This document shows positions 16,751 to 40,205 of a stretch of DNA of 64,000 nt, piece after piece. The stretch is taken from NCBI GenBank assembly GCA_903927005.1, contig CAIYLH010000059.1, positions 1-64,000 of the forward strand, given 5' to 3'. The stretch's first letter is position 1, and each line of letters opens with the position of its first letter. Source of the stretch: an uncultured Pseudomonadota bacterium (lineage in GTDB: Bacteria > Pseudomonadota > Gammaproteobacteria > Steroidobacterales > Steroidobacteraceae). Made by a program: the position numbers and the translations under genes. The notes under the pieces were generated by a model. The model did no database searches, was not told where the DNA came from, and was given only the letters and a program-made list of their open reading frames with translations.

Positions 16751-17692
16751 TCAGCGTGCCTTGGTGCGGCCGCAGAGGTAGGTCCAGACGAATGCCGAGG
16801 CGGCGTTGCTGGTGAGTTCCGCATGGTCGTAAGGTGGGGCGACCTCGCATAGGTCCATGCCGACCCAGTTCAGGTCGTGCCACTCCTCCAGCAGCGTCAG
16901 CACCTGTGAACTCGTCATGCCGCCGGGCTCCGGCGTGCCGGTGCCGGGCGCGAACGCCGGATCCAGGCAGTCGATGTCCAGCGACAGGTAGATGGGCACG
17001 GGACCGGCAGCCGCAAAGCGATCACGCACGGTCTGCAGGACCTGCGACAGTTGGCCTGCGCTTTCGAGACCGCGCAGATCGCGTGAGGTATAGATCAGGC
17101 CGCCGCGATCGGCGACGTAGCGGGCGGTTTCCGGAGCCGCCGACGAGCGAATGCCGACCTGTACGGTCAGGGTCGGGTCGATCAGGCCTTCCACGATCGC
17201 CTCGTGTACCCAGGTGCCATGACCCGACGGTTCGCCAAAGTGGTCGGTCCAGGTGTCGCAGTGCGCGTCGAAGTGCACGATTGCGAGCGGCCGTCCGAAG
17301 TGCGCGCGGTAGGCGCGCAGCAGCGGCAGCGTGATGGAGTGGTCACCACCCAGCCACACCATGTGGTGGCGCGCGATCAGCGCGGCGACCTGCGGCGCGA
17401 GCGCCTCGCGCATGCCGGCGAGCGAAGTATTGGGCAGGGTCAGGTCGCCAGCGTCGGCGAGGATGTCGAGTGGCGTCACGCCCCACAGCGGATGCGTACC
17501 GTCGCACAGCATGTGGCTGGCGCGGCGGATCTGGTACGGCCCAAAGCGCGAGCCGGGACGGTTCGTGGTCGAGCCGTCCCAGGGAATGCCGGCGACCACG
17601 CACGGCGCGTCCGGACGGGCTGCCAGCGACGGCGCCTTCAGAAAGCCCGCGTGCGTCGTCGAGGTCTGGAACGCGAAAGTGTAGTCGCCCAT
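16751..17692 (-). CDS. Ureohydrolase (agmatinase/guanidino-acid hydrolase family)
   Basis: 313 residues. It hydrolyses a guanidino compound to an amine and urea with a di-manganese (or nickel) centre. Metal ligands are His118 (GGDHSI), Asp142, His144 and Asp146 (HFDAHCDTW), and Asp239 and Asp241 (SLDIDCLDPAFAPG). The loop after His-Gly (HGTWVHEAI) differs from the HGTPFRRA type common in agmatinase, so agmatine, guanidinobutyrate, guanidinopropionate or another guanidino acid are all possible. It is the last gene of the mttB-led run, 73 bases after the dipeptidase. The urea could be used by the urease in this window. Confidence 0.88.
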   Translation of the reverse strand: MGDYTFAFQTSTTHAGFLKAPSLAARPDAPCVVAGIPWDGSTTNRPGSRFGPYQIRRASHMLCDGTHPLWGVTPLDILADAGDLTLPNTSLAGMREALAPQVAALIARHHMVWLGGDHSITLPLLRAYRAHFGRPLAIVHFDAHCDTWTDHFGEPSGHGTWVHEAIVEGLIDPTLTVQVGIRSSAAPETARYVADRGGLIYTSRDLRGLESAGQLSQVLQTVRDRFAAAGPVPIYLSLDIDCLDPAFAPGTGTPEPGGMTSSQVLTLLEEWHDLNWVGMDLCEVAPPYDHAELTSNAASAFVWTYLCGRTKAR

Positions 17693-17765: not shown

Positions 17766-19079
17766 TCAGGGCGCCGCCGGCGGCAGCGTCGCGATCGACG
17801 CCGGCCGGGTTGTGCGCAACCGTGCCGCAACGCGTTCGGCTGCAGCCATGACGCGCAGCAGGTTTTCGCCAGCGACCTTCGCGATGTCGGTGTCCGTCCA
17901 GCCACGGCGCATGAGTTCCATGAGCAGCGCCGGGTAACGGTCAACACCTGACAGGCCAGTTGGCGTTTCATCGATGCCGTCGAAGTCTGAGCCGATACCG
18001 ACATGGTCGACGCCGGCGATCTTGCGGATGTGGTCAATGTGGTCCGCGACTTGCTCAAGCGTCGCCGGCGGTACCGGGTGCTTGGCGTCCCAGGCGGCGA
18101 GCGCGATCTTGGCGCGATCCGGTTGGCCGATGTAAAGCCCGCCGTAGGGTGGGCTGTTGTAGCGGGCCTGCTCGGCGGCGCGATCGGCATCCCACTCGTT
18201 GTGCGCCTGCGAGACGTAGCCGGGGTTGAAGTTGACCATCACCACGCCGTCGTTGGCGGCGAGCAGTCGCAGAATGTCGTCTGGGACGTCGCGCGGATGA
18301 TCGACCAGTGCACGGGCCGAGGAGTGCGAGTAGATCACCGGCGCTTCGCTGGCGGCGAGGGCAACTTTCATCGCCTCGGGCGAGACGTGGCTGAGGTCAA
18401 CGAGCATGCCGAGCCGATTCATCTCGCGGACGACTTCTACACCGAAGGGGCTCAGGCCATGGTGCTTCGGGTCGTCCGTCGCAGCGTCCGCCCAGGGGGT
18501 ATTGGCGGTGTGCGTCAGGGTCATGTAGCGGGCGCCCGCGTCATACATCTGGCGCAGCACGGCGAGCGAGGAATTGATCTGGTGCCCACCTTCGATGCCG
18601 ATCAGCGAGGCGACCTTGTGCGCCTTGTGGATGCGGCGGATGTCGGCTGCGGTGTAGGCCATTTCCATGTCGTTCGGGTAATGGGCCGTCAGCCGTTTGA
18701 CGATGTCCATTTCCTCGAGCGTCATCTGCACGGCTTCGAAGCCCTTGACGTCGACGGGGATCCACACGGACCAGAACTGGCCACCTACGCGGCCGGCGCG
18801 CAGCCGCGGGATGTCGGTCATCAGCGGCAGCGTGCCGCCGGGGCCGGCGATCTTGGACTGGTCGACCTGCAGGTCGACCGCGCTGACGTCGCTCTTGAAG
18901 CGGGCACGGAATTCCCACGGCAGGTCGTTGTGGCCATCGATCAGCGGCGTTGCGGCAAGCACGCGATCGACACGTGCCTGGTAGTCAGCGTCGTTGCCTG
19001 CTGCGATGCAGGCTGGCGTACCCGCCAGCAGAGCGAGTGCGGCGACGGATGCCAGGACGGGAAGGGAGGGGATGCGCAT
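17766..19079 (-). CDS. Exported membrane-dipeptidase family (M19) peptidase
   Basis: 437 residues from ATG 19079, which has GAGG 8 bases upstream. An extra ATG at 19109 is less likely. A signal peptide (MRIPSLPVLASVAALALLAG) is followed by the zinc-site residues His50 and Asp52 (DGHNDLP), Glu163 (GIEGGHQ), His231 (VDLSHVS) and His252 (YSHSSAR). Family enzymes hydrolyse dipeptides, including D-residue types, in the periplasm. The MFS gene is 47 bases upstream, suggesting periplasmic cleavage next to uptake of products. Confidence 0.9.
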   Translation of the reverse strand: MRIPSLPVLASVAALALLAGTPACIAAGNDADYQARVDRVLAATPLIDGHNDLPWEFRARFKSDVSAVDLQVDQSKIAGPGGTLPLMTDIPRLRAGRVGGQFWSVWIPVDVKGFEAVQMTLEEMDIVKRLTAHYPNDMEMAYTAADIRRIHKAHKVASLIGIEGGHQINSSLAVLRQMYDAGARYMTLTHTANTPWADAATDDPKHHGLSPFGVEVVREMNRLGMLVDLSHVSPEAMKVALAASEAPVIYSHSSARALVDHPRDVPDDILRLLAANDGVVMVNFNPGYVSQAHNEWDADRAAEQARYNSPPYGGLYIGQPDRAKIALAAWDAKHPVPPATLEQVADHIDHIRKIAGVDHVGIGSDFDGIDETPTGLSGVDRYPALLMELMRRGWTDTDIAKVAGENLLRVMAAAERVAARLRTTRPASIATLPPAAP

Positions 19080-19126
19080 ATGCGAAACCTCGTGCCGAAA
19101 GGATGACAAAAGATAGAGTCGGTCAA

Positions 19127-20413
19127 TCAGCCTGCCGCGCGCAGCCTGCGGTCAGGATCAATCAGCAACCATAGGCCGGCCGCGATCAGGGAAACAATAG
19201 TGCCCATGACGAAGGCGCCGTTCCAGGCACCTGCGTCGACCAACACGCCCATCACAAGGTTGGTGAGCACGCCGCCCAGGTTGCCGCCGGTATTGAGCAC
19301 CCCCGTGGCCGCGGCGGTGTCGGCGCGTGCGACGCGCATTGTTGCCGCCCAGTAGGCGCCCTCGTTGAACTCGATCGCACAAAACGCGATCGTGAGTGCT
19401 GCGACCGCGGCGTGTGGCGTGGAGACGTGAGTGGCGACGAGCAGCATCAGGCCCGCAAACGGCATCGTGATGAGAGGCACGAGCCTATAGCCCCAGCGTG
19501 CGCCCATCCGGGTCGCGAGCCGATCGGATATCTCGCCGCCTATGCCTGCGCCAACCGCAGCGCCCAGCCACGGAATGGCACCTGACCAGGCGCTGTCGAG
19601 GCCTTCGAGGTGGCGCACCTCGACCAGGTAGATGTATGACCAGGTGCTGAGCAGGTAGAACGCGACGTTCATGCATAGGTACGAAACTGCGAGCAACAGT
19701 ACATCGCGGTTGGTCGTGATGGTCAGCAGGCGGCGCAGGGTCAGTGGTGGTGCGGGCGTACGGTCCGTGCCGCTGAGCTCAGCGATTTCTTCCGGTGTGA
19801 CGGCGGGGTGCTCTTCGGGCGTATCCCGCCCGTACCAGCCCCACCAGAGGGTCAGCACGATTGCAGGTACAGCGAGCCAGAGCAGTGCGCCTTTCCAGCC
19901 GAAGCCTTGCATCAGGAACACGATCAGCGGCGCGGCAATCAGGCCGCCGAGATCCATGCCGGCAGACTGCATGCCGTTGGCGTAGGCCCAGCGCTTTTCC
20001 GGGAACCAGGACTGCACCACGGCCGCGAACATCGGGAAGACCGGTCCCTGCGATGCGCCGAGGATGAGTTGCGAGAGGAGCAGCAGAGCGAATAGGACCG
20101 CGCCGCCTGCTATCACCGGAGCCACTGGCGTGACTACCATCGCAATCAGCCCGAGGATGCCAACGGCGATGTAGGTCAGCCGCGGTCCCAGTCGTTGGCC
20201 CAGGGCTGCGCCCGGTAGTTGGGATAGCGCATACGCAGTCGCGAATGTGCCGGTCAACAGGCCGAACTGGGTGTGGTTGAGGTGCAGGTCCCCCATCATC
20301 GGCGCGGCGACGATGCTGAAGCTCGTGCGCTGCAGGTACGAGAGTGTCGCGAAGGAAAACAGGAATCCGAAGATCCACCAGCGGACCCGCACCGGATGGA
20401 TCGGCAACGGCAT
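19127..20413 (-). CDS. MFS transporter, anion:cation symporter-like
   Basis: 428 residues from ATG 20413. AAGGGG lies 6 bases upstream, while ATG 20419 is too close to it and the frame to 20551 is rejected. It has about 12 membrane segments, an N-terminal RVRWWIFGFLFSFATLSYLQR, the ACS-type GxxxGQRLGPR loop after TM2, and DRLATRMGARWGYR in the central loop. Transporters of this type import organic acids and amides. It sits 76 bases after the dimethylglycine-dehydrogenase-like gene and before the dipeptidase, so it probably imports the substrate or product of this pathway. Confidence 0.88.
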   Translation of the reverse strand: MPLPIHPVRVRWWIFGFLFSFATLSYLQRTSFSIVAAPMMGDLHLNHTQFGLLTGTFATAYALSQLPGAALGQRLGPRLTYIAVGILGLIAMVVTPVAPVIAGGAVLFALLLLSQLILGASQGPVFPMFAAVVQSWFPEKRWAYANGMQSAGMDLGGLIAAPLIVFLMQGFGWKGALLWLAVPAIVLTLWWGWYGRDTPEEHPAVTPEEIAELSGTDRTPAPPLTLRRLLTITTNRDVLLLAVSYLCMNVAFYLLSTWSYIYLVEVRHLEGLDSAWSGAIPWLGAAVGAGIGGEISDRLATRMGARWGYRLVPLITMPFAGLMLLVATHVSTPHAAVAALTIAFCAIEFNEGAYWAATMRVARADTAAATGVLNTGGNLGGVLTNLVMGVLVDAGAWNGAFVMGTIVSLIAAGLWLLIDPDRRLRAAG

Positions 20414-20489
20414 CGTCATCCCCTTCACGCGACGGGGCCGACGCGGTGCCCGATTATGGCACTGCGTCGGCGTGGCTGCGTAGCTGTGT

Positions 20490-22907
20490 CTACAGGCGCA
20501 GGCGTCGGCCCGTCGGATCGTAGGGGGGTTCGGACAGGATCCGTGCGGCACGCGGCTGGCCGATGATGTCCACTGTCAGCGGTTGTGGGTGGTCGGCGAC
20601 GGCGCGCTCCAGATAGGCGAGCGCCAGGCTCATGCCGACATGGTGGCCGTAGGCACCGGAGGTCACGTAGCCGATGCGGCGTCCGTCGGCGTGGATCGGC
20701 TCGTAGCCGCTTACGTCCGCTGTTGGCGAGTCGACGGCGAGCAGCACCAGCCGCTCGGACGGCCCCGTCTCGCGCTCGGCCAGGGCGGCGTCGCGACCGA
20801 TGAAGTCGCCCTTGTCGAAGGCGACGAAACGGTCGAGGCCGCTCTGTGCGGGCGTGTTCGAGGCGCTGAACTCGCACGACCAGATGCCGTAACCCTTCTC
20901 GAGTCGCAGGCTGTCCTGCGCGCGCATGCCGACGGGGCGCATGCCGAAGTCCGCGCCGGCCTCCAGCAGGGCGTGCCACAGGGCGCGTTGCTGCGGTGCG
21001 GGAACGTTGATCTCGTAACCGAGTTCGCCGGTCAGCGATAGACGCGCGACGACGGCGGTGGTCATGCCTACATCGATCTGCCGGCAGCCCAGGAAGGGCA
21101 GGGAGGCGTCCGACACGTCCTCGCGGGTGAGGCGTGCGAGGATGTCGCGCGATCGCGGGCCGGACAGCGAGAAGCCGAGCCAGCTCTCCGACAGGTTTTC
21201 CAGCGTGACGCCGGACGGTGGCAGGTGATCGCGGAACCAGCGCAGGTGCCATTCCTGCAGGTAGTAGGAACCGACTAACCAGAAGCGGTCGGCTGCCAGA
21301 CGCGTCACTGTCAGATCGCCCATCAGTTTGCCGTTGGGGCTGAGCATCGGCGCGAGCCGCAGGCGCCCTACCGGCGGCAGGGTGTTGGCGAGCAGCTGGT
21401 CCAGCCAGCTTTCGGCGCCAGGTCCGGTCACCTCGTAGCGGGCGTAGACGCCGGTATCGATCACGCCTGCGGCCTTGCGTGTTGCGGCCACTTCCTGCGC
21501 GATGAAGCGGTGTGCGGTGGAGCGGTGCAGCGTCGGCTCGTCGACGAACTCAGGCTCGCCCGGCGCGTAGAACTGCGGGCTCTCCATTCCATAGACTACC
21601 CCGAAGCGCGCGCCGGCGGCGGCTTGGGCGTCGTAGCTGGGCGTCGTCTTCAGTGGCCGTCCGGCCGGCAGCTCTTCGTTCGGGTACGCAATCACGAAGC
21701 GCCGCTTGTAGAACTGTGCGGTCATGTCGCGCAGGTACTTGTCGTTGGAGGCGAACGCGCCATAGCGGGCGACGTCCATGCCGAAGATGTCGGAGCCGGG
21801 GTCGTTCTGCGTGATCCAGTTGGACAGTACCAGGCCGATGGCCCCGCCCTGCGAGAAGCCCGACATGCAGCCGCAGGCGACCCAGTAGTTCGACAGGCCC
21901 GGCACTGGACCGACCAGTGGGTTGCCGTCGGGCGTAAACGTGAACGCACCGTTGACCCAGCGGCGGATGCCGGCGCGCTGGAGTGAGGGGAAACGGCTGA
22001 AGCCTATATTCAGTTCCGGGCTGATCCGGTCGATGTCCTCCGGGATCAGGTCCATGCCGTAGTCCCAGTCGGCGCCCTCCGTCTTCCAGTGGCGCGGGTC
22101 GCGCTCGTAGACGCCCAGCAACACGCCCTTGCGCTCCTGCTGCAGATACGTGAAGCCTTCGAGGTCGGTGACGCAGGGCATCTCGTTGGGGAGCGCCAGC
22201 AGTTCCGGCAGGTCCTCGGTGACCAGATAGTGATGCTGCATCGGCGTCAGTGGCAGGTTGATGCCCGCCATGTGTCCGACGCGGCGCGCCCACAGGCCGC
22301 CGGCGTTGACCACGTGTTCGGCCACGACCGGGCCGAGCTCAGTGTCTAGGCGCCAGTGGCCGTTGGGCAGCTGCGTTAGTGCCAGCACGCGGTTGCGCAG
22401 GATCACGTCGGCTCCGCGCTTCTTCGCCGAAATCGCGAACGCGTGCGTGGTGCCGTGCGGGTCAACGGCGCCTTCGAGCGGATCAAACATGCCGCCGAGC
22501 AGGCCGTTCGGGTCGACGATCGGGCAGTCAGCGACGATCTGCTCGGGGGTCGCCAGGTGGGCCTCGATCCCAAGGGTCTGGTAGACGGAGCACTCGCCCT
22601 GCAGCCACTCCCAGCGGGCAGGCGTGGTCGCGATGCTGTAGCCGCCAGGCATGTGCATGCCGACGTTCTGACCGCTCTCCGCCTCGATTTCCTTATACAG
22701 GCGGATCGTGTATGCCTGCAGTGCGGCGATATGCGGATCGTCGTTGATTGAATGAAATCCCGCGGCTGCATGCCAGGTAGAGCCGGCCGTGAGTTCTGTT
22801 CGTTCAATCAGCGCGATATCGGTCCAGCCCTGCTTGGCGAGATGGTAGAGCACGCTGGTGCCGACGATTCCGCCGCCGATCACGACGACTCGATAATGGC
22901 TCTTCAT
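20490..22907 (-). CDS. Dimethylglycine/sarcosine dehydrogenase-like flavoprotein with GcvT-type C-terminal domain
   Basis: 805 residues. The N-terminal DAO-family FAD domain has GGGIVG (11-16), and His46 in GSTWHAAG is the residue that binds FAD covalently in dimethylglycine dehydrogenase. The C-terminal half (about 430-805) is a GcvT/THF-binding fold (RYEVTGPGAESWLDQLL, GELGYEINVP, DSLRLEKGY, YDPTGRRL). The expected reaction is oxidative N-demethylation with the one-carbon unit passed to tetrahydrofolate. It follows the mttB-like gene by 6 bases, so the two should act in sequence. Dimethylglycine is the best guess from context. Confidence 0.92.
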   Translation of the reverse strand: MKSHYRVVVIGGGIVGTSVLYHLAKQGWTDIALIERTELTAGSTWHAAAGFHSINDDPHIAALQAYTIRLYKEIEAESGQNVGMHMPGGYSIATTPARWEWLQGECSVYQTLGIEAHLATPEQIVADCPIVDPNGLLGGMFDPLEGAVDPHGTTHAFAISAKKRGADVILRNRVLALTQLPNGHWRLDTELGPVVAEHVVNAGGLWARRVGHMAGINLPLTPMQHHYLVTEDLPELLALPNEMPCVTDLEGFTYLQQERKGVLLGVYERDPRHWKTEGADWDYGMDLIPEDIDRISPELNIGFSRFPSLQRAGIRRWVNGAFTFTPDGNPLVGPVPGLSNYWVACGCMSGFSQGGAIGLVLSNWITQNDPGSDIFGMDVARYGAFASNDKYLRDMTAQFYKRRFVIAYPNEELPAGRPLKTTPSYDAQAAAGARFGVVYGMESPQFYAPGEPEFVDEPTLHRSTAHRFIAQEVAATRKAAGVIDTGVYARYEVTGPGAESWLDQLLANTLPPVGRLRLAPMLSPNGKLMGDLTVTRLAADRFWLVGSYYLQEWHLRWFRDHLPPSGVTLENLSESWLGFSLSGPRSRDILARLTREDVSDASLPFLGCRQIDVGMTTAVVARLSLTGELGYEINVPAPQQRALWHALLEAGADFGMRPVGMRAQDSLRLEKGYGIWSCEFSASNTPAQSGLDRFVAFDKGDFIGRDAALAERETGPSERLVLLAVDSPTADVSGYEPIHADGRRIGYVTSGAYGHHVGMSLALAYLERAVADHPQPLTVDIIGQPRAARILSEPPYDPTGRRLRL

Positions 22908-22913
22908 GGTCCG

Positions 22914-24467
22914 TTATTCCTCTTCGATCGCATCGGTGAGCGTGGCGCGTCGCCGTGCCATGTAGTCCAGCAGTGCCTCGTCGCGGGCCGGATCCAGTCC
23001 CGGATCCTCGTACTCTGCCAGCATCTTTTTCCACACCTTGTTGGCGCGCTGCTCTGCCGACAGGCTGCCCTCGATCGCCCACTGCTCGTAGGACGAGTAA
23101 TCGGCGATTTTGGACTGATAGAACGCGTCTTCGAAATTGGCCTGCGTATGGGCACAACCGAGGAAATGCCCGCCGGGGCCTACTTCACGAATGGCATCCA
23201 GCGCCTGGCCGCGCTCGCTGATGTCCATGCCGGACGCCAACGCCTGCATCATCGCAAGCTGGTCGGCATCCATCACGAACTTCTCGTAGCCGGACACGAG
23301 CCCGCCTTCGAGCCAACCCGCGGCGTGAGTGACAAGGTTGACGCCCGCGAGCAGCGTAGGCAGCAGCGTGTTGGCGCTTTCGTAGCCGGCCTGTGCGTCG
23401 GCGATCTTCGAGGAGCACAGGGAACCGCCGCTGCGGCAGGGCACGCCGAGGCGCCGTGCCAGCTGCGCGGTCGCGAAGATCATCTGGGTGGCTTCAGGCG
23501 TACCGAACGTCGGCGCGCCGGTGCGCATCGAAATGGCTCCCACGAATGAGCCCATGATGACGGGCGAGCCCGGTCTCACTAACTGTGTGAGTGCCATGCC
23601 CGCGAGGGTCTCGGCGAGGATCTCGGACATGCACCCGGCGGTGGTCACCGGGCCCATCGCGCCTGCGAGCACGGCGGGGACAATGATCGTTCCTTGGTTG
23701 GCGCCGGCGAACACGCGCAGCGCTCCCAACATGCGGCCGTCAAAGGTCAGCGGTGAGTTGGAATTGATGTTGCCGAGGACCACCGCGTTCTGCTCAAGAA
23801 AATCCGCGCCGAATAGCAGGCGCGCCATGTCTACCGCGTCGGCAGCGTGTCCCGGAGTCTCAGGTGTCGCCTCGCAGCCCTGGTCGCTGTAGCGAAAAAA
23901 CGCGTACTGCACGTCGAGGTGCCGCTTGCCGGCCGGGATGTCCATCGGCTCGACGGTGCTGCCGCCGGAGAAGTGGATCGCGGGGGCCATGTGGGCGAGC
24001 TTGATGAAGTTGTGCAGGTCCTCCAGGGTCCCGTAGCGCCGACCACGATCGAGGTCCGTCACGAAGGGCGGTCCGCCGACTGGCGAGAATACCGTCGCGT
24101 CGCCGCCGAAGCGGACGGTTCGCTCGGGATTGCGGGCGTGGAGCATGAATTCCCGCGGCGCGGTGCGCAGCAGCGAACGGGCAAGTCCGCGCGGAATGCG
24201 GACGCGCTCACCGATGACGTCGGCACCTGCCTCCCGCCACAGTCGCAGGGACTCAGGGTCGCGCCGAAACTCGATGCCGATCTCCTCGAGAATCGTCTCG
24301 GCGTTTGCCTCGATGATCTCTACCGCCTCGGAGCTGAGCAGTTCCACGGTCGGCAGCTTGCGGCGGATATAGGGGAGCTTGACGGCTTTGCGCTGCTCGC
24401 GCGCGGCACGGCGGGTTTCGCGCGAGACCGCACGGTGCGGGCGTCCGGGTGCGGATGGATCGCTCAA
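22914..24467 (-). CDS. MttB/MtgB superfamily methyltransferase (non-pyrrolysine)
   Basis: 517 residues, close to MttB length. Start is TTG 24467, the only initiator near the front, with GGGAG 8 bases upstream. Trimethylamine-methyltransferase-like sequence includes LEEIGIEFRRDP, GGSTVEPMDIP, INSNSPLTFDGRML, ETLAGMALTQLVRPGSP and GGHFLGCAHTQ. There is no in-frame TAG, so no pyrrolysine. That matches the MtgB subgroup, which demethylates glycine betaine and related quaternary amines via a corrinoid protein. No corrinoid protein is encoded nearby, so the methyl acceptor is unknown. It heads a five-gene run with the DMGDH-like gene. Confidence 0.9.
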   Translation of the reverse strand: MSDPSAPGRPHRAVSRETRRAAREQRKAVKLPYIRRKLPTVELLSSEAVEIIEANAETILEEIGIEFRRDPESLRLWREAGADVIGERVRIPRGLARSLLRTAPREFMLHARNPERTVRFGGDATVFSPVGGPPFVTDLDRGRRYGTLEDLHNFIKLAHMAPAIHFSGGSTVEPMDIPAGKRHLDVQYAFFRYSDQGCEATPETPGHAADAVDMARLLFGADFLEQNAVVLGNINSNSPLTFDGRMLGALRVFAGANQGTIIVPAVLAGAMGPVTTAGCMSEILAETLAGMALTQLVRPGSPVIMGSFVGAISMRTGAPTFGTPEATQMIFATAQLARRLGVPCRSGGSLCSSKIADAQAGYESANTLLPTLLAGVNLVTHAAGWLEGGLVSGYEKFVMDADQLAMMQALASGMDISERGQALDAIREVGPGGHFLGCAHTQANFEDAFYQSKIADYSSYEQWAIEGSLSAEQRANKVWKKMLAEYEDPGLDPARDEALLDYMARRRATLTDAIEEE

Positions 24468-24538: not shown

Positions 24539-24568
24539 TTTATAGCACGCAACTTTTATTTATAACAA
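24539..24568 (-). promoter_or_regulatory. Candidate promoter for the mttB-led operon
   Basis: On the minus strand TTGTTA (24568-24563) and TATAAA (24544-24539) are separated by 18 bases in an AT-rich pocket of an otherwise GC-rich region. The predicted transcript would start about 65 bases before the mttB-like start codon. The segment lies between two divergent operons and next to a BetI-like regulator gene, so it is a natural operator site. Prediction by eye only. Confidence 0.4.
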
Positions 24569-24602
24569 GTGTCATTTAATGCAATATCCGCCCTTCGCCG
24601 GC

Positions 24603-24657: not shown

Positions 24658-25254
24658 ATGCCTAAAATTGTCGATCACGCGCGCCGCCGCGAGGAGATCG
24701 CCGCGTTGACTGTCCGGGTTATACGGACGGAAGGCTCGGCGAGCGCCACGATCCGTCGCATCGCGACGGAAGGGGGCTTCAGCATTGGCGTGCTGGGTCA
24801 CTACTTCAAGGACAAGGACGATCTTGTCGCGTTCGCGTTCCAGTGGATGGCGACACAGTCGTTCAAGGAGCTCGATGTGGCGGTCGCCGCTGCCGAACCT
24901 GGCTTGGCCCGCCTCCGTGCCGCAATGGGTTTCATGGTGCCGGCACCGGGCGAGCCGAGCTTCATTGCGGTCTGGCTAAGTCTTTGGGACGGTGCCCTAA
25001 AGAACCCCGCCCTTGCCCGGGTGCATCGTGCCTACTACGCGCGCTGGCGGCGCCATCTGCGGCGCTACGTTCGGGAAGCAGTCGTTCAGGGCGAAATCGC
25101 CCCGCTTGAGTCGAGCGACAACGCGGTCGATCTGCTGAGTGCCGTCATCGACGGGCTATGGATCGGTGTGACTTTTGAGCCTGGCCGTTACCCGTTGCGC
25201 CGCCGGCGAGAACTGGTCTCGCGGGCTCTGCGCGACGTGCTTGGCGCCGATTGA
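24658..25254 (+). CDS. TetR family regulator, BetI-like
   Basis: 198 residues. The N-terminal helix-turn-helix (RREEIAALTVRVIRTEG, ATIRRIATEGGFSIGVLGHYF) and the length match BetI and related choline/betaine repressors. AGGATCGAG precedes the ATG. It is divergent from the mttB-like gene and upstream of soxBDAG, so it may repress both runs until a methylated amine binds. It could respond to another ligand; the context, not the ligand pocket, supports betaine-type control. Confidence 0.87.
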   Translation: MPKIVDHARRREEIAALTVRVIRTEGSASATIRRIATEGGFSIGVLGHYFKDKDDLVAFAFQWMATQSFKELDVAVAAAEPGLARLRAAMGFMVPAPGEPSFIAVWLSLWDGALKNPALARVHRAYYARWRRHLRRYVREAVVQGEIAPLESSDNAVDLLSAVIDGLWIGVTFEPGRYPLRRRRELVSRALRDVLGAD

Positions 25255-25410: not shown

Positions 25411-26685
25411 ATGACAGGGCCCACTCCCCACTATTCGGCGCTCGCGCTGTTGCGCGCGCGGCTCGCAGGAGGCGGCTTCTGGCGCCCCCTGTGGACAGGC
25501 CGGCTCCTCAAGCAAGCCTACGACGTCGTCGTGGTCGGCGCCGGTGGCCACGGCCTGGCGACTGCCTTCCATCTCGCCCGTGACCATGGCCTGAAGGTGG
25601 CGGTGCTGGAGAAACGCCTGGTCGGCTACGGCAACGTAGGTCGTAACACGACGATCGTCCGTTCCAACTATCTGCTGCCTGAAAACCATTACTTCTACGA
25701 AGACTCGCTGCGTCGCTGGGAGACGCTGTCGAAAGACCTCAATTACAACGTGATGTATAGCCCGCGCGGCGTCGTGGACTTGGCGCTGTCGGATGGCGAC
25801 ATGATCGGCGCGGCGCGGCGCGGCAATGCAATGCGGCTCGCCGGCATCGACTGCGAAATGATGGATCGCGCGGCGCTCGATCGCTTCTGTCCGGAGCTGG
25901 TAGCAAGCCGTGATCGGCGCTTTCCGATCTTTGGCGCGCTGGTTCAGCATCGTGGCGGCACGGTTCGCCATGATGCGGTCGCCTGGGGCTACGCTCGCGC
26001 GGCGACGGCGCTTGGGGTCGACATTATCGAGGATTGCGAGGTTACGGGGTTGCGCACCGCGGCGGGCGTCGCTACTGGTGTTGAAACCGTAAAGGGCTAC
26101 GTGCAGGCGAACCGAGTGCTGTTTGCCACTGCAGGCCACACTGGCATGATCGGCACGATGCTTGGCGTGACGCTGCCGATCGAGACCCACCTGCTGCAGG
26201 CGATGGTTACCGAGCCGATCAAGCCGATGCTGAATACGGTATTGGTGTACGTGCATCCAGGCCATGGTGAGACCTATCTGCTGCAGTCCGACAAGGGGGG
26301 CCTCGTGATGGGAGGCTATCTTGACGGCTTCCCCTCCTACACCCGTGAAGGGCAGTGGTCGCGCATGGAGGATGTCGTGCAGGGCGCGATTGCCATGTTG
26401 CCGCAGGCGGCCGGCGTCAAGATTGTGCGTCAATGGGCGGGCATCAACGACATGACGATGGACGGCAGTCCGATCATCGACCGTCTGCGCTACGACAACG
26501 TCTTTCTGAACGCAGGCTGGTGCTACGGGGGATTCAAGACCATCCCAGCATCCGGAGCTGCGTGCGCGAAGCTTGTGGCGAGTGGTACTGCTCCTGACTT
26601 GATCAAGGCCTACAGACTGTCGCGCTTCGAGACCGGGCATATGCTCGACGAGCGTGGTGGCGGCCCGTTCCCGGTGCGCCTATGA
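25411..26685 (+). CDS. soxB: Sarcosine oxidase beta subunit
   Basis: 424 residues. It is part of the alpha-beta-gamma-delta sarcosine oxidase that demethylates sarcosine to glycine, giving H2O2 and formaldehyde or 5,10-methylene-THF. FAD-binding VVGAGGHGLA is at residues 41-50. His187 in TVRHDAVAW is the likely site of the covalent FMN, by analogy with His173 of the Corynebacterium protein. The core ends with AGWCYGGFKTIPASG, diagnostic for the family. The stop overlaps the soxD start (ATGA). Confidence 0.95.
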   Translation: MTGPTPHYSALALLRARLAGGGFWRPLWTGRLLKQAYDVVVVGAGGHGLATAFHLARDHGLKVAVLEKRLVGYGNVGRNTTIVRSNYLLPENHYFYEDSLRRWETLSKDLNYNVMYSPRGVVDLALSDGDMIGAARRGNAMRLAGIDCEMMDRAALDRFCPELVASRDRRFPIFGALVQHRGGTVRHDAVAWGYARAATALGVDIIEDCEVTGLRTAAGVATGVETVKGYVQANRVLFATAGHTGMIGTMLGVTLPIETHLLQAMVTEPIKPMLNTVLVYVHPGHGETYLLQSDKGGLVMGGYLDGFPSYTREGQWSRMEDVVQGAIAMLPQAAGVKIVRQWAGINDMTMDGSPIIDRLRYDNVFLNAGWCYGGFKTIPASGAACAKLVASGTAPDLIKAYRLSRFETGHMLDERGGGPFPVRL

Positions 26686-26924
26686 CCCGCCTGACTTGTC
26701 CGTTCTGTGGTCCCCGCGAGCTGCGGGAGTTCGAGTTTCATAAGACGTTGCCGGAACCGGGCAGTACGCCGTATGCGCGCGTCTACGAGCGCGTGAACCG
26801 TCTCGACGATAGCCTCGAGCACTGGCAGCACGTACAAGGCTGCCGCGGCTGGTTGCTGGTACGGCGCAATCCTTCCAGCGGCGCCGTGCTTGAGACGGTC
26901 ATTCTCGGCGGAGGTGCCCAGTGA
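26682..26924 (+). CDS. soxD: Sarcosine oxidase delta subunit
   Basis: 80 residues, slightly short for SoxD (about 90-100). CPFCGPRE at residues 6-13 and the later HWQHVQGCRGWLLVRRN supply the zinc-binding cysteines and histidine expected for the delta subunit. It is coupled by ATGA to soxB and by GTGA to soxA. The region between the two metal-binding halves is more divergent than usual, but operon position makes the call firm. Confidence 0.9.
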   Translation: MTRLTCPFCGPRELREFEFHKTLPEPGSTPYARVYERVNRLDDSLEHWQHVQGCRGWLLVRRNPSSGAVLETVILGGGAQ

Positions 26925-29857
26925 ACGGCACGCAACGTCGCGGCACGCGGCTTACGGACACCTCGCTGCGCTTTACCTTCGACGGCCGCGAGTACTGCGG
27001 GCAGGTCGGTGATACCGCCGCCTCTGCGCTGCTGGCGAGTGGTGTGCGCGCGATGGGGCGGAGCGTCAAGTACCGCCGGCTGCGCGGCGTGCTGGCGGCG
27101 GGGCCGGAGGAGCCGAATGCGTTGTTCACGGTGGGTACGAGTCCGGCCGTCATCCCGAACGTCTACGCGCCGCAGCTGGAGCTGCGCGATGGCATGGTCC
27201 TCAAGAGCCAGAATCGCTGGCCATCGCTGAAGTACGACGTCGCCTCGCTGCTGCAGGTCGGTAGTGGCTTCTTCGGCGCCGGCTTCTACTACAAGACGTT
27301 CATCTGGCCGTCCTGGCACCGTTGGGAGGCGACGATTCGTGCGCTCGCAGGCCTCGGCGAGGCGCCGGGTACGTGCGAGCTGCCACCCCCGGCTGTTGAG
27401 CACTTCAGTTGCGATGTGCTGGTCGCCGGCGCTGGCGCCGCTGGACTTGCGGCAGCCCGCGCGGCCGCGCGGGCCGGGGCCCGGGTCGTACTGTGCGAGC
27501 GTGAGCCGGTCTGCGGCGGCGAACTTGAATTTGAGTTCGCCACGATCGAAGGCCGCCCGGCACTCGCGTGGGTGGATGCGACGCTCGTGGAGCTTGCCTC
27601 TCTCGGTGTGCGGGTACTGACTGACACGACGCTGGTCGGTGGCACTGGCGGAGAGTACGTCGCTCATCACGAGCCAGGTGGTGTCCCGGGCGCCAACAGC
27701 GTCTACAAGATCCGCCCAGTCGCATTCGTGATCGCGATGGGTGCGGTCGAGAGGCCGATCGCGTTTATCAATAACGATTTGCCTGGTGTCATGCTGCTCG
27801 GCGCTGCCGAGCGCTTCCTCGCGCGGTACGGTGTGATGGTCGGTAGCAACCTCGTGCTGTTCGCCAACCACGATCGTGTCTACGCTGCGGCTACCAGGCT
27901 TGCATCCGCGGGGATGCGCGTGTGCGCGGTCGTGGACATTCGCGACTCCGGCGCGCTCGGCGCTGAGGCCACTGCACAGCGGGCGACGCTCGCCCAGGGC
28001 GGCACCGAGTGCCTGCTCGGGTATGCAGTCATTTCCGCAGCGGGGGGTAGTCACGTCCGGCGCGCGATCGTCGCGCCGTTGGCGTCACCGTCGGCGACGC
28101 GAGTGATTGCCTGCGATGTGGTACTCGTCAGTGGTGGTTGGGGCCCGTCCGCGCATGCCGGCCTGCAGGAAGGTGGCACCACGCGTTACGAAGAGGGCCT
28201 GGCGGCGTTTGTGGCGATGGATCAGCCCGAGGGGCGTGAGAACGCTGGAGCTGCCAACGGCTTGCTCGAGCTTCCGCGGGTGCTCATCGATGGTGCCGGT
28301 GCCGGCACTCGTGGCGCTCGCCGCGCAGGTGCTGATGGTGATCCGGGCGCGACCCCTATCGCCAGCGGTGATCCAGCCCCGCGGCTCGTGCCGTTCTGGC
28401 GCTCGCCGGCAGATCGTGCTGGCGAAAAGCGGCAGTTCATCGATTACCAGAACGACGTCAACGTCGCCGATTTGCGCGCGACGCTGGAGGAAGGCTTCGT
28501 CGACATCGAGCACGTCAAGCGCTACACGGCGCTGGGCTTCGGGACCGACCAGGGACGCATCGGTGGCCTGCTCGGAGCGGCGATCCTCGCTGAGCTGCGT
28601 GGTGAACCGCTAAAGGATGTGGGTACGAGCCGACTGCGCCCGCCGTACCATTCGGTGACGATGAGCTCACTGGCCGGGCTGCGGGTTGGAGCTCGGCTGC
28701 GTCCGATGCGCCGTACACCGCTGCATGACTGGCATCTCGCCAATGGCGGCGTGCTCGAGCCGATGGATTTGTGGATGCGGACGCGCTACTACCGGCAGAA
28801 CGGCCCGGCTGTATTCGAGGCAGGCATCGCCGAGGCCCAACGGGTACGGACCAGTGGCGGGATCGTCGACGGCTCGACGCTCGGCAAGATCGAGGTCGCA
28901 GGTCCCAACGCGGCTGTCTTTCTCGATTCGCTGTACCTGAACAAGGCGAGCACCATCAAGGTCGGCCGATCGAAGTACATGGTTAACTTGCGCGAGGACG
29001 GCATGGTCCTTGACGACGGCATTGTACTGCGTCTTGCCGACGACCGATTCATCGCGACGACCAGTTCGGGTCACGGCGGCCACATGCTGTCGCACTTCGA
29101 GCACTACCGCGACACTGAATGGAGTGGTCGCGGCGTTACGGTTACTGACGTCACCGAGAGCTGGGGCGTGATCGTGGTTGCCGGCCCGCAGAGTCGTACG
29201 GTGCTGCATAGCGTGCTGGGCGCCGCGTGGCAACCCGTGCTCGATACGCTCACGCACATGGCCTTCGCGCGTGGGGCGTTCGGTGGGCAGGATCTCACGG
29301 TGCTGCGTGCCAGCTTCTCCGGTGAGCTCGCCTTCGAGCTTCACTGTCGTCCTTCGATAACCGTTGCGCTATGGGAAGCATTGATTGCGGCGGGCTTCAA
29401 GCCATATGGTCTGGAGGCTCTCGATATCCTGCGCGTAGAAAAGGGCTATCTGGTCAGCTCCGAGCTAAACGGCGAGACGACGCCATTCGACCTGTGCATG
29501 GATGGCCTGGTGAAGCTCGGCAATCCCTGTGTCGGCCGTGACCTGCTTGACCGTCCGGCATTCCATGAGTCAGACCGTCCGCGGCTGGTCGGAGTGCGTG
29601 CGCTCGACGGCAAGGCGATTTTCTACGGCGGCGCCCAGCTGACCACCGCCGAGCAGCCGAACCGACCCTGCGGGTACGTGACCTCCAGTGTCTACAGTCC
29701 GACACTCGGAGAATGGGTTGGGCTCGCGCTGGTAAGCCGCAAGCAACCCGAGGGCGCGGTGCTCGACTGTCGCGACCCGGTGCGCATCGGTGACTGCAGG
29801 GTGCGGCTTACTTCGATGGTCCACTACGATCCTACCGGCGAGCGGATGAAGTCATGA
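26921..29857 (+). CDS. soxA: Sarcosine oxidase alpha subunit
   Basis: 978 residues, start GTG 26921 with GGAGG upstream. Domain order: an N-terminal 2Fe-2S-like fold (SLRFTFDGREYCGQVGDTAASALLASGV, RSVKYRRLRG), an NAD-binding Rossmann domain with VAGAGAAGLAAARAAA near residue 170, then a C-terminal GcvT/THF-binding part (ATTSSGHGGHML, LSGE-type FSGELAFEL, LRVEKGYLVSS, YDPTGERM). The THF domain captures the one-carbon unit as 5,10-methylene-THF. It ends in an ATGA overlap with soxG. Confidence 0.95.
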   Translation: MNGTQRRGTRLTDTSLRFTFDGREYCGQVGDTAASALLASGVRAMGRSVKYRRLRGVLAAGPEEPNALFTVGTSPAVIPNVYAPQLELRDGMVLKSQNRWPSLKYDVASLLQVGSGFFGAGFYYKTFIWPSWHRWEATIRALAGLGEAPGTCELPPPAVEHFSCDVLVAGAGAAGLAAARAAARAGARVVLCEREPVCGGELEFEFATIEGRPALAWVDATLVELASLGVRVLTDTTLVGGTGGEYVAHHEPGGVPGANSVYKIRPVAFVIAMGAVERPIAFINNDLPGVMLLGAAERFLARYGVMVGSNLVLFANHDRVYAAATRLASAGMRVCAVVDIRDSGALGAEATAQRATLAQGGTECLLGYAVISAAGGSHVRRAIVAPLASPSATRVIACDVVLVSGGWGPSAHAGLQEGGTTRYEEGLAAFVAMDQPEGRENAGAANGLLELPRVLIDGAGAGTRGARRAGADGDPGATPIASGDPAPRLVPFWRSPADRAGEKRQFIDYQNDVNVADLRATLEEGFVDIEHVKRYTALGFGTDQGRIGGLLGAAILAELRGEPLKDVGTSRLRPPYHSVTMSSLAGLRVGARLRPMRRTPLHDWHLANGGVLEPMDLWMRTRYYRQNGPAVFEAGIAEAQRVRTSGGIVDGSTLGKIEVAGPNAAVFLDSLYLNKASTIKVGRSKYMVNLREDGMVLDDGIVLRLADDRFIATTSSGHGGHMLSHFEHYRDTEWSGRGVTVTDVTESWGVIVVAGPQSRTVLHSVLGAAWQPVLDTLTHMAFARGAFGGQDLTVLRASFSGELAFELHCRPSITVALWEALIAAGFKPYGLEALDILRVEKGYLVSSELNGETTPFDLCMDGLVKLGNPCVGRDLLDRPAFHESDRPRLVGVRALDGKAIFYGGAQLTTAEQPNRPCGYVTSSVYSPTLGEWVGLALVSRKQPEGAVLDCRDPVRIGDCRVRLTSMVHYDPTGERMKS

Positions 29858-30354
29858 TGGCCGTCACACAGATTAGCGGCAACGGTATCGAACTTGTCGA
29901 GCGCCCGATTGGGCGTGTTCTTGAGTTCGTTGCGTTTCATTTTCCGCCCGAAGGCGCCTTCGTGGTCGGCTGGCCGGCGGCGCCCGGCGCGGTACGTCAT
30001 GACACGCTGGGTGGTCCCGGCCTACTGCACTTCGCGCCGGCGCGCTGGCTCGCCCCGTCGCCGTGTGCGGAGATCGCCGCCCTTGTTGCCGCGGCGGAGG
30101 AAGCCGCGGGTACGTGTGTGGACGTCACCGGCAAGTGGCGCGAGTTCGCGCTTGGCGGGCCCCGTGCCGGGCGCGTACTCGCGAGTGCCGTGAATGTCGA
30201 GGCGGTACTTGAGGGCCGGGAGTGCGCAGCCATCACGATGTTCGACTGTCCGTGCATCCTGGTGCGGGTAACGGATGGCTACCGTATATGGGTACGCAGC
30301 AGTTTTGCTACCGATTTCATCGCGGCGGTTCAGAGCCTGCGCCTACCCGCCTGA
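29854..30354 (+). CDS. soxG: Sarcosine oxidase gamma subunit
   Basis: 166 residues, a typical divergent SoxG. Recognisable family pattern is VDVTGKWREFALGGPRA, and the C-terminal MFDCPCILVRVTDGYRIWVRSSFATDFIAAV. It completes the heterotetramer. It starts within the soxA stop (ATGATGA) and is followed after 129 bases by a LysR gene on the same strand. Confidence 0.9.
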   Translation: MMAVTQISGNGIELVERPIGRVLEFVAFHFPPEGAFVVGWPAAPGAVRHDTLGGPGLLHFAPARWLAPSPCAEIAALVAAAEEAAGTCVDVTGKWREFALGGPRAGRVLASAVNVEAVLEGRECAAITMFDCPCILVRVTDGYRIWVRSSFATDFIAAVQSLRLPA

Positions 30355-30483
30355 GCGCCACCTTGCCTCCGTAAATGAGGTTGGGATGGCCGCGAGGGGC
30401 GGCGAGGGCCGTCACTCGCGGCGTTGCCAGCGTCACCAAGCCATTTGCCTGATAATGGTCTCCCAGACCCGTTGCGAGAGTTC

Positions 30484-31371
30484 ATGCGCGTTCCCCGCCA
30501 GGCCCTGCTAGATGCCCTGCGTGCCTTCAGCGTCGCGGCCCGTCAGCTGAGCTTTAAGGCCGCAGCAGATGCGCTGTTCATCACGCCGTCCGCAGTCAGT
30601 CACCGCATCCGCGACCTTGAGAAGCACCTCGGTCAGCAGGTGTTCGTCCGCAAAACGCGCGCGATTGAGTTGACTGAAGCGGGGCGGGCGCTGATTGATG
30701 AGATCGATCCATTGCTGGTATCGCTGGATGCCGCGCTCGACCGCGCGGCTAAGCGGACTCGGCGCAGGGTGCTACGGATCGCCGCGCCGCCATTCCTCGC
30801 GACGGACTTGCTGATTCCCAGCCTCGCGAGTTTTTGCGGCATGCAGCCGAAGATCGACCTGGACATCAACAGCGGCACGGCGCGCCCGAGCGCTCATACG
30901 CCGCAGGCAGACGTCTCGATCGTGATTGCCTCGGCCCCGCCGCCAGATGTTGTTGCCACGAAGTTGCTGAGTCCGCGGTTCGTTGCCGCTACGTCAATGG
31001 CGAACTCCTTGGTGGCGCGCGAACTCGGCTCCCGCGTCTTTGAAAAGCAGCGGCGCATTGTCTACCGGCACCGTTCCGACCTTTGGACGCAGTGGTTCAC
31101 CACAACCGGGTTCCCGGTAACGCGGGCCGGGACGGTGATTCAGGTCGATACCCTGCCAGCGGCGATCAGCGCTGCGGAGCGCGGTCTGGGTATCTCGCTG
31201 GTGCCCACTTTCGTTTGCGAGCGCCGTCTGCGGCCCGGTCGACTGGTCCGTATCGCCGATACCGAGGTCGACTCCGGTGACACCTACTATCTGGTCTATC
31301 GGCCAGAAGATCGGGCCAGGCCCGAGGTGCGGGCGTTTTTGAGCTGGGCGCTAGCGGAGCTGCGGCGCTGA
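30484..31371 (+). CDS. LysR-type regulator, GcvA-like
   Basis: 295 residues from ATG 30484 (a 20-residue longer frame is rejected). Helix-turn-helix motif SFKAAADALFITPSAVSHRIRDLEKHLG has the GcvA-type spacing. The effector domain carries the GcvA-family end (ERGLGISLVPTFVCERRLRPGRLV). GcvA-type proteins control glycine cleavage, fitting glycine as end product of the upstream sox genes. It sits 129 bases after soxG and could be co-transcribed. Direct target unknown. Confidence 0.85.
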   Translation: MRVPRQALLDALRAFSVAARQLSFKAAADALFITPSAVSHRIRDLEKHLGQQVFVRKTRAIELTEAGRALIDEIDPLLVSLDAALDRAAKRTRRRVLRIAAPPFLATDLLIPSLASFCGMQPKIDLDINSGTARPSAHTPQADVSIVIASAPPPDVVATKLLSPRFVAATSMANSLVARELGSRVFEKQRRIVYRHRSDLWTQWFTTTGFPVTRAGTVIQVDTLPAAISAAERGLGISLVPTFVCERRLRPGRLVRIADTEVDSGDTYYLVYRPEDRARPEVRAFLSWALAELRR

Positions 31372-36689: not shown

Positions 36690-38420
36690 ATGCGTATCTT
36701 CTGCAGACTGAGCTGTTTGTGCCTGTTGGCCGCGTTGGCCACGAGCGTGGGCGCCGCGGTGCCCACGGTGCGTGCCGACCTGCTGTTCGTGAATGGCAAT
36801 GTCCGCACGCTCGACCCCGCCCGCCCCCAGGCGAGCGCGGTCGCGGTTGCTGCCGGGCGGATACTGCGCGTCGGGACTGACGCAGAGGTGCGGGTGATGG
36901 CCGGCAGCGACGCGCGGATCGTCGACCTGCACGGACACACGCTGCTGCCGGGTCTTGGTGATACGCATGTTCACCCTGCGATCGGCGAGTACTTCAACCG
37001 GCGCCTGTGCAATGTCGCTGGCTACACGCTCGAGGAAAACTTCACCCGGCTCGCCCGCTGCGCGGCGACGGCACCCGCCGGCGACTGGGTAGTGGCCTAC
37101 GGCTGGTACTTCACTGACAATCCGCATTTGAGCGAAGTGAGCCTCGCGCAGCTCGACGCTGCGGTGCCAGAGCGAAAGCTGCTGCTTATCGCGCGCGACT
37201 CGCACACCGTGTGGGTCAATTCAAAGACGCTCGCCGCTTACGGCATCACGGCTGACACCGCAGATCCTGACGGCGGCAGTATTGGGCGTGATCCAGTCAC
37301 CAAGGCGCCCAATGGCGTATTGCGTGATGCTGCCGCGTGGCGCGTATTGCTCGACGTGCAGCATCACTCTGCCTATTCGGTATCGACGGCAGAACTGTTT
37401 CTAACGGCAATTCCGTATCTCAATTCGCTCGGCATAACTTCGCTGTTCGAAGCGCTCGGTGACGATGACATCGAGGCGGCGTACCAGGCGCTGGATCGCG
37501 CCGGGCAGCTGTCCATGCATGTTTCTATAGGTTTCGCCGTTGCGCCCGACACCTACCGAAAAATGATTCCTAAGATAGCCGGCAAGCGTGCCCACCAGAC
37601 GCCACACGTGACGGTGAACTTCGTCAAGGTGATAGCCGACGGCAATGGCGAAGACAACCTCGCCAACATCCTGCCGGGTAAGGGCCGGCCGCCCATGGCA
37701 ACGCACGGCTATTACACCCAGCCCCAGATGAACGAGCTGGTGCGCCTTGCCGAAGCCAATGGACTGAGCGTATACGTGCACGTTATAGGCGATGGTACTG
37801 CGCGCCAAGTCATAGATGCGGTTGCCGAAGCGCGCAGGCACGGCCCTTGTCCGCGCTGCCGCCACACGCTGACACACCTGCAGTGGATCGATCCGGCAGA
37901 TATGGTTCGAATGAAAGAGTTGCACATGATCGCAAACCTACAGGAAGGCTGGCTTGCGCCGCGTGCGATCGGTGGTCCCGCTGGTTACGATTATCTCAAG
38001 GACACGGCCAGTGGGCCGATGGGGCCGACTTTGGCGGCGGCGATGTATCCGTTCCGCAGCCTTCATGAGGCGGGAGTTCCCATAGCCGCTGGCAGCGACT
38101 GGTTTTACACCGACGAGAATCCATGGAACGACATGGAGGTAGGCGCAACGTCGCGCGACCCGGGTGATGCGGCCTCGACGCCGATGGTTCCCGCCCAGAC
38201 GCTTGATGTTGCGACGCTGCTCGCCGCGCGGACTCGGGTCGCGGCCTACCAGCTGTTCCTGGAGCAGAGCACCGGCACGATCGCGGTGGGCAAGCGGGCG
38301 GATCTTGTGGTCGTTGACCGCGATGTGCTCGCGGTGCCGCCTTCTACATTGCACGAGACACGGGTGCTGATGACGGTGTTCAATGGTCGGGTGGTCCACG
38401 AGCTTCCGGCGGCCCACTAG
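36690..38420 (+). CDS. Exported amidohydrolase, YtcJ-like
   Basis: 576 residues with signal peptide (MRIFCRLSCLCLLAALATSV). Metal-dependent amidohydrolase barrel with HxH at His93 and His95 (LGDTHVHP). The family-3 region DSHTVWVNSKTLAAYGI and the C-terminal IAAGSDWFYTDENPW supply the metal aspartate. YtcJ-type enzymes act on formamide-like or N-acyl substrates. RBS GGGGAG is clear. It starts a plus-strand pair with the ThDP enzyme gene 36 bases downstream and resembles the amidohydrolase at 40206-41996. Confidence 0.87.
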   Translation: MRIFCRLSCLCLLAALATSVGAAVPTVRADLLFVNGNVRTLDPARPQASAVAVAAGRILRVGTDAEVRVMAGSDARIVDLHGHTLLPGLGDTHVHPAIGEYFNRRLCNVAGYTLEENFTRLARCAATAPAGDWVVAYGWYFTDNPHLSEVSLAQLDAAVPERKLLLIARDSHTVWVNSKTLAAYGITADTADPDGGSIGRDPVTKAPNGVLRDAAAWRVLLDVQHHSAYSVSTAELFLTAIPYLNSLGITSLFEALGDDDIEAAYQALDRAGQLSMHVSIGFAVAPDTYRKMIPKIAGKRAHQTPHVTVNFVKVIADGNGEDNLANILPGKGRPPMATHGYYTQPQMNELVRLAEANGLSVYVHVIGDGTARQVIDAVAEARRHGPCPRCRHTLTHLQWIDPADMVRMKELHMIANLQEGWLAPRAIGGPAGYDYLKDTASGPMGPTLAAAMYPFRSLHEAGVPIAAGSDWFYTDENPWNDMEVGATSRDPGDAASTPMVPAQTLDVATLLAARTRVAAYQLFLEQSTGTIAVGKRADLVVVDRDVLAVPPSTLHETRVLMTVFNGRVVHELPAAH

Positions 38421-38456
38421 TCGCGACTAGTGGGCTCCCCGGACGGAGGAGGATCG

Positions 38457-40190: not shown

Positions 40191-40205
40191 GCGCCCGGTA
40201 GCGCT

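Follow-up and report, generated by a model that had tools for sequence, protein, structure and literature searches.

An MttB-superfamily methyltransferase paired with a dimethylglycine dehydrogenase-like flavoprotein in a Steroidobacteraceae genome: a candidate demethylation cassette probably served by a remote corrinoid protein

Introduction

In the proteobacterium Ruegeria pomeroyi, betaine utilisation depends on mtgC and mtgD, as does methionine, and the available part of the report mentions up to seven pfam06253 genes (PMC12478193, 2025). In Eubacterium limosum, MtqC, MtqA and RamQ operate with the substrate-specialised MttB-family enzymes MtpB, MtcB and MtyB, according to the available sections (PMC8604678). 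To the extent of these partial texts, both systems are precedents for several MttB homologues per corrinoid protein. Here, we describe an MttB homologue encoded next to a flavoprotein with a tetrahydrofolate (THF) domain in a stretch of 64,000 nucleotides (positions 1 to 64,000 of contig CAIYLH010000059.1, assembly GCA_903927005.1; hereinafter the window) from an uncultured bacterium of the Steroidobacteraceae. An earlier note on this DNA had proposed two routes for the methyl group, one through a distant corrinoid protein and one passing to THF without a corrinoid. The first was supported by a corrinoid gene cluster on another contig; the second was not, in view of gene co-occurrence and of the separability of the two genes. 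On sequence evidence, the pair would be a cassette that demethylates an N-methylated quaternary amine, using corrinoid chemistry through a remote, shared MtgC (probability about 0.87).

The genome resembled the MtgBCD(E) system of Ruegeria in carrying separate genes of the MtgB, MtgC, MtgD, MtgE, MetF2, RamA and DUF1638 types in a proteobacterium, and in having several pfam06253 genes per one MtgC (PMC12478193, as far as available). No MetH was found in the genome by B12-binding and pterin-binding profile searches. Ten MttB homologues were present, compared with the number of up to seven mentioned for Ruegeria. Unlike the enzymes of that system, the window MttB had a regulator of its own and fell in a distinct orthologous group whose pocket is altered; further, genes for later demethylation steps are described near mtgBCD in the available text, whereas MttB-flavoprotein cassettes are not (PMC12478193). 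The E. limosum system is similar in that specialised MttB-family enzymes share one corrinoid protein, but it belongs to an anaerobic acetogen that directs methyl-THF into the Wood-Ljungdahl pathway, and no flavoprotein partner is described in the part of the report available (PMC8604678). More broadly, no description of a cassette of MttB and a dimethylglycine dehydrogenase (DMGDH)-type protein was recognised in the literature, as far as the partly available sources extend.

The MttB homologue and its flavoprotein partner

The MttB homologue was encoded upstream of the flavoprotein gene on the minus strand, and a Shine-Dalgarno-like GAGGAA lay within the final MttB codons, ahead of the flavoprotein ATG. 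The MTTB profile was matched over its full length (residues 14-509 on profile positions 3-498 of 500; 718 bits, cut-off 25). The reading frame was open with no in-frame amber codon, and Leu350 occupied the place of pyrrolysine in MttB in the structure alignment. The closest named relatives (80-92% identity) came from gammaproteobacterial or proteobacterial metagenome-assembled genomes, including one of the Steroidobacteraceae and one of the Nevskiaceae by title. Among solved structures, the nearest was 4yyc, a putative trimethylamine methyltransferase (656 bits), followed by MtgB 2qne (410 bits) and MttB 7xcl (120 bits). However, 4yyc grouped with the type of MttB encoded on contig C47 of the window's genome, matching the C47 protein with 785 bits, and had a pocket tyrosine absent from the window protein.

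The partner showed the domain layout of the dimethylglycine dehydrogenase family, with DAO, FAO_M, GCV_T and GCV_T_C all above the Pfam cut-offs. Human DMGDH (5l46) was its nearest solved structure (516 bits, nearly full length); the near full-length alignment and the domain layout were also shared with 4pab, and the STWHAA motif, which we take to have a role in attachment of flavin adenine dinucleotide (FAD), was kept. In proteins of this type the GCV_T domain captures carbon from oxidative demethylation. The window flavoprotein, with a putative DMGDH-type activity, differed from these structures in being bacterial and paired with MttB.

Corrinoid proteins elsewhere in the genome

The genome containing the window (G000; the window is C59:1-64000) is a 3.99-Mb assembly of 139 contigs and 97% completeness. 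Matches to the B12-binding profile PF02310 occurred at five places in the whole genome, namely on C47, at C59:82480, at two places on C5 and on C97; none lay in the window at the threshold of this search. Thus the earlier note was right that the two genes stand 6 bases apart (22908-22913, both minus), that the partner carries a THF domain and that the window holds no corrinoid protein.

The place on C47 (19218-19907) encoded an MtgC-type corrinoid protein, the only one in the genome, in which a DIHDIG motif accompanied the cap and B12-binding domains. Downstream of mtgC on the same strand were open reading frames (ORFs) for DUF1638 (103.7 bits), Virulence_fact, the C-terminal part of methylenetetrahydrofolate reductase (MTHFR), MTHFR (119.7 bits), MtgD and RACo/RamA (305 bits), the scores given each exceeding the cut-off. 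The MtgD candidate matched Pterin_bind and PRK07535 (351 bits, cut-off 259). The MtgC, MtgD, RamA, DUF1638 and MetF2-type genes of the MtgBCD system were therefore all present and clustered on C47, where the MtgC-like protein and RamA-type activase that the earlier note had suggested looking for were found together. An MttB gene lay near this hub on the opposite strand, followed by genes for choline dehydrogenase and betaine-aldehyde dehydrogenase, both above cut-offs. In addition, soxA, soxB and soxG on C47 exceeded their family cut-offs. Contig C47 (L014, L015) represented a second choline/betaine locus, comprising the hub, betA, betB, two full-length DMGDH-like flavoproteins and sarcosine oxidase.

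The remaining B12-binding places were ruled out. C59:82480 was not MetH; the combination of MM_CoA_mutase, MeaB and B12-binding domains identified it as a fused acyl-CoA mutase, with no pterin-binding match there. The other three were rejected as methyl carriers: C97 and C5:56295 were MerR-type regulators, and C5:129796 encoded a small B12-binding subunit next to an ORF that by eye resembles a mutase. On C131, a betaine-homocysteine methyltransferase model was matched with 474 bits (cut-off 338), a type named MtgE in Ruegeria. At 63149-64000 the window also contained a gene resembling homocysteine S-methyltransferases, which scored under the curated cut-off and runs past the window end.

The window MttB and the C47 MttB were identical at 309 of 513 positions (60%). 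In the MttB-MttC complex, it is chiefly dimerisation loop 396-452 of the adjacent MttB subunit that grips MttC, according to the available part of the structural report (PMC9842639). The corresponding segment of the window protein, about 413-470 by the structure alignment, was 67% identical (39/58) to the C47 MttB, which is compatible with, and no proof of, a corrinoid partner common to both enzymes. The C47 corrinoid protein is probably common to the ten MttB-family enzymes of the genome.

Co-occurrence across related genomes

Samples of 60 genomes from the family of the window and 143 from its class were compared; two class genomes with MttB belong to that family. In the family, MttB and a RACo/RamA-type activase were each found in 26 genomes, 25 of which had both (Fisher p 1.3e-14). 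In the class, the six genomes with MttB were all among the eight with RACo. Near full-length window-type MttB (at least 67% identity) was encoded in 17 family genomes, a set that leaves out a fragment in G027 and a 238-residue MttB match of 68% in G005. A one-piece MtgC at 80% identity or more was present in 16 of these 17; the remaining genome, G038, carried MtgC fragments at contig ends, together with a broken copy of 54% identity.

Pairing and separability of the two genes

Pairing of MttB with this flavoprotein exceeds chance. In the family genomes, 23 of 56 places of flavoproteins at least 45% identical to that of the window were within 300 bp of a same-strand MttB, whereas none of 40 places below 45% were; the places were taken at E 1e-150 or better with at most 16 candidates scored per genome, and some are pieces of one gene. 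For this count 122 MttB places were used, the 10 weakest (<90 bits) being left out, none of which lay on a contig with a listed flavoprotein.

Adjacent pairs in the window's genome were found on C59, C12 and C113, with a fourth on C80 outside the E 1e-150 list. On C80 (L023, 1575-8205), a distant MttB was located between two same-strand DMGDH-like proteins, the downstream one being 33% identical to that of the window and 106 bp from MttB. The flavoprotein-MttB pair on C12 (L016, 201-10154) had FolD and an AraC regulator upstream; another, distant MttB and a hutH-like aromatic amino acid lyase that scored below cut-off were encoded at this locus too, which could be a pathway of the histidine-betaine type. 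The pair on C113 (L018, 2230-13024) had a BetI-type TetR, an acyl-CoA dehydrogenase and a major facilitator superfamily (MFS) gene nearby, together with a carnitine 3-dehydrogenase-like fusion (590.9 bits, cut-off 592).

The two genes also occurred apart. In G020 (95% complete), which gave no MttB match and no RACo match, a 67% orthologue of the flavoprotein directly followed ORFs matching soxB, soxA and soxG. At three of 31 window-type MttB loci (L044, L050, L052), the gene after MttB, on the same strand, coded for a flavoenzyme of the trimethylamine dehydrogenase (TMADH)/histamine-dehydrogenase type; the L050 copy, the one examined by profile and structure searches, contained only Oxidored_FMN and Pyr_redox_2 and had no folate domain match. 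Since the genes are separable, the flavoprotein is naturally read as acting on the demethylated amine, and a role as methyl acceptor is unlikely. At another relative's locus (L055, 11551-13842), an APH-aminotransferase class III fusion follows MttB.

Substrate pocket

Docking prediction for MtgB gave Y94, N199, R309 and H345 as betaine contacts in the available part of the report (PMC6855144). Three of the four were kept in the window MttB, as N235, R345 and H381. The place of Tyr94 was taken by Gly131 in 31 of 31 window-type orthologues and by tyrosine in 50 of 50 C47-type MttB. The predicted set was accordingly incomplete in the window enzyme, and the change from Tyr to Gly throughout the orthologues makes glycine betaine doubtful as its substrate. 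At a 90% threshold, 35 positions differed group-specifically between the two types.

Neighbouring genes

The features around the pair are listed in Table 1. Divergently from mttB, the gene set and gene order of a heterotetrameric sarcosine oxidase (soxBDAG) were present, all four subunits scoring below the NCBIfam cut-offs, soxB by 6 bits. The repeat between mttB and tetR was found in all six loci with a divergent TetR (the window and five related loci). MFS relatives adjoined MttB orthologues in L028, L029, L040, L043, L051 and L057, while the M19 peptidase and ureohydrolase were neighbours in a single close relative (L028) among 31 orthologue loci. The conserved neighbours at these 31 loci gave no substrate, and the MFS carrier alone recurred. 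At 36690-41996 and 45659-47128, farther along the window, a gene for a thiamine pyrophosphate-dependent enzyme had genes for three amidohydrolases around it, of which two were Amidohydro_3-type.

Table 1. Features at and around the mttB-flavoprotein pair (positions in the window)
Feature	Position	Strand	Remarks
Arginase/agmatinase-family ureohydrolase	16751..17692	-	
M19 membrane dipeptidase	17766..19109	-	
MFS transporter, start uncertain	19127..20551	-	Downstream of the pair
DMGDH-like flavoprotein with folate domain, 805 amino acids	20490..22907	-	DAO, FAO_M, GCV_T, GCV_T_C
6-bp gap between mttB and flavoprotein gene	22908..22913	-	
MttB-superfamily methyltransferase, non-pyrrolysine, 517 amino acids, TTG start	22914..24467	-	Pfam MTTB 718 bits
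Operator-like inverted repeat TKACANNTGTYAT between mttB and tetR	24562..24574	unspecified	
BetI-type TetR repressor, divergent from mttB	24658..25254	+	TetR_C_6 83.8 bits; BetI models below cut-off
soxB-like sarcosine oxidase beta subunit	25411..26685	+	TIGR01373 523.6 bits, cut-off 529.45
soxD-like delta subunit, 80 amino acids	26682..26924	+	TIGR01374 43.1 bits, cut-off 116.5
soxA-like alpha subunit	26921..29857	+	TIGR01372 945 bits, cut-off 1164
soxG-like gamma subunit	29854..30354	+	TIGR01375 32 bits, cut-off 144
LysR regulator, GcvA-like	30424..31371	+	PRK11139 198 bits, cut-off 288

Discussion

Several observations weigh against a cassette dependent on a remote, shared MtgC. The best NCBI model for the C47 protein was MtgC_2, at 210.8 bits under a curated cut-off of 370. 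Within the DNA covered, the gene mtgC was found in 0 of 31 window-type MttB loci compared with 14 of 49 C47-type loci, many loci ending at contig ends. Genome G027 (82% complete) had a 137-residue fragment of window-type MttB (79%) at a contig end, its nearest free-standing corrinoid protein being 36% identical to MtgC; G039 (78% complete) had MttB and MtgC with no RACo match, and G028 had RACo with no MttB. The co-occurrence statistics, moreover, ignore shared ancestry. Of the window-type MttB loci in named records, 24 of 31 were without an adjacent flavoprotein of this type and 7 of 31 had one. The agreement of MttB and flavoprotein distances over 33 loci (r 0.96) speaks for the cassette; however, speciation and a split into two deep clades account for most of it, and L157 was placed differently in the two trees. 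As for regulation, the TKACANNTGTYAT motif was not found with up to one mismatch at 11 other loci of the genome including C47, which gives no operator common with mtgC, and it had no other exact match in the whole genome, where the reversed pattern, used as a control, gave one match. The finding named beforehand as speaking against new chemistry was a co-regulated mttC-like gene at another place; such a gene exists on C47, and its co-regulation did not emerge from this search.

With regard to the substrate, we slightly favour a quaternary amine other than glycine betaine, such as the betaine of proline, lysine or another amino acid, the second enzyme being specific for the dimethyl product. 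The altered pocket, the sox scores below cut-offs and the cassette's own operator-like site incline us to this reading. It is also in line with the MFS carrier, which lies just upstream of MttB orthologues without an adjacent flavoprotein (L043, L051, L057), and with the other pathways adjoining the other cassettes of the genome, as represented by the carnitine 3-dehydrogenase-like gene on C113 and by FolD and the aromatic amino acid lyase on C12. Nevertheless, no neighbour indicates a single compound, the M19 peptidase and ureohydrolase recurring in L028 only, and the pocket residues are taken from a docking prediction for a different enzyme.

A second glycine betaine pathway, in which MttB would yield dimethylglycine, the flavoprotein sarcosine and SoxBDAG glycine, seems rather unlikely to us. 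The order of enzymes fits such a pathway, a BetI-type TetR and a GcvA-like LysR stand beside the cassette, and the similarity of the flavoprotein to human DMGDH, the three retained pocket contacts and the position of the flavoprotein orthologue behind the sox genes in G020 are all in its favour. These points are opposed by the glycine that invariably replaces the pocket tyrosine, by the group-specific differences between the two types of MttB, by sox subunits that fall below the family cut-offs in the window while soxA, soxB and soxG of C47 exceed them, and by the fact that C47 already possesses an MttB, two DMGDH-like ORFs, sox genes and the choline and betaine-aldehyde dehydrogenases.

Direct transfer from the MttB homologue to THF bound by the folate domain of the flavoprotein, which the tight gene coupling and the lack of a corrinoid gene in the window might suggest, is very improbable, given the corrinoid hub in the same genome, the strong co-occurrence of MttB with MtgC and RACo, the flavoprotein located behind sox genes where no MttB was detected, the MttB genes that precede a TMADH-type enzyme instead (the copy examined having no folate domain match), and the GCV_T domain being explained by carbon capture in oxidative demethylation. 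An mttB without an adjacent corrinoid gene is no sign of new chemistry, since its corrinoid partner most likely belongs to a shared hub encoded at another place.

In the demethylation cassette with a remote MtgC that we prefer, the MttB homologue would take one methyl group off the quaternary amine and load it onto Co(I) of the C47 MtgC. MtgD would then hand the methyl group to THF, and the resulting methyl-THF would be oxidised by the MTHFR-type enzyme, while RamA, perhaps with DUF1638, may restore Co(I). The 805-amino-acid flavoprotein would subsequently oxidise the demethylated amine with FAD, its folate domain trapping the carbon as methylene-THF, and the divergent soxBDAG-like enzyme might take off a further methyl group. 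Through the local TetR and the operator-like site, the cassette would be induced by the particular amine that it degrades.

The mechanism is ordinary; it is the MttB-flavoprotein cassette that is uncharacterised as to substrate. It is possible, and a more tentative proposal than the cassette itself, that the window MttB represents an uncharacterised subfamily acting on a quaternary amine without a known demethylase of the superfamily, as one of several independent MttB-flavoprotein cassettes (C59, C12, C113 and, with a more divergent flavoprotein, C80) on a single corrinoid hub that maybe also makes methionine. If so, the substrate range would widen by the addition of cassettes and not of new corrinoid proteins. 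Identification of the substrate could start from the replacement of Tyr by Gly, from the TetR and its operator-like site, and from the MFS carrier. As a working rule, the organism may be able to draw one-carbon units, nitrogen and energy from one quaternary amine per MttB-flavoprotein pair.

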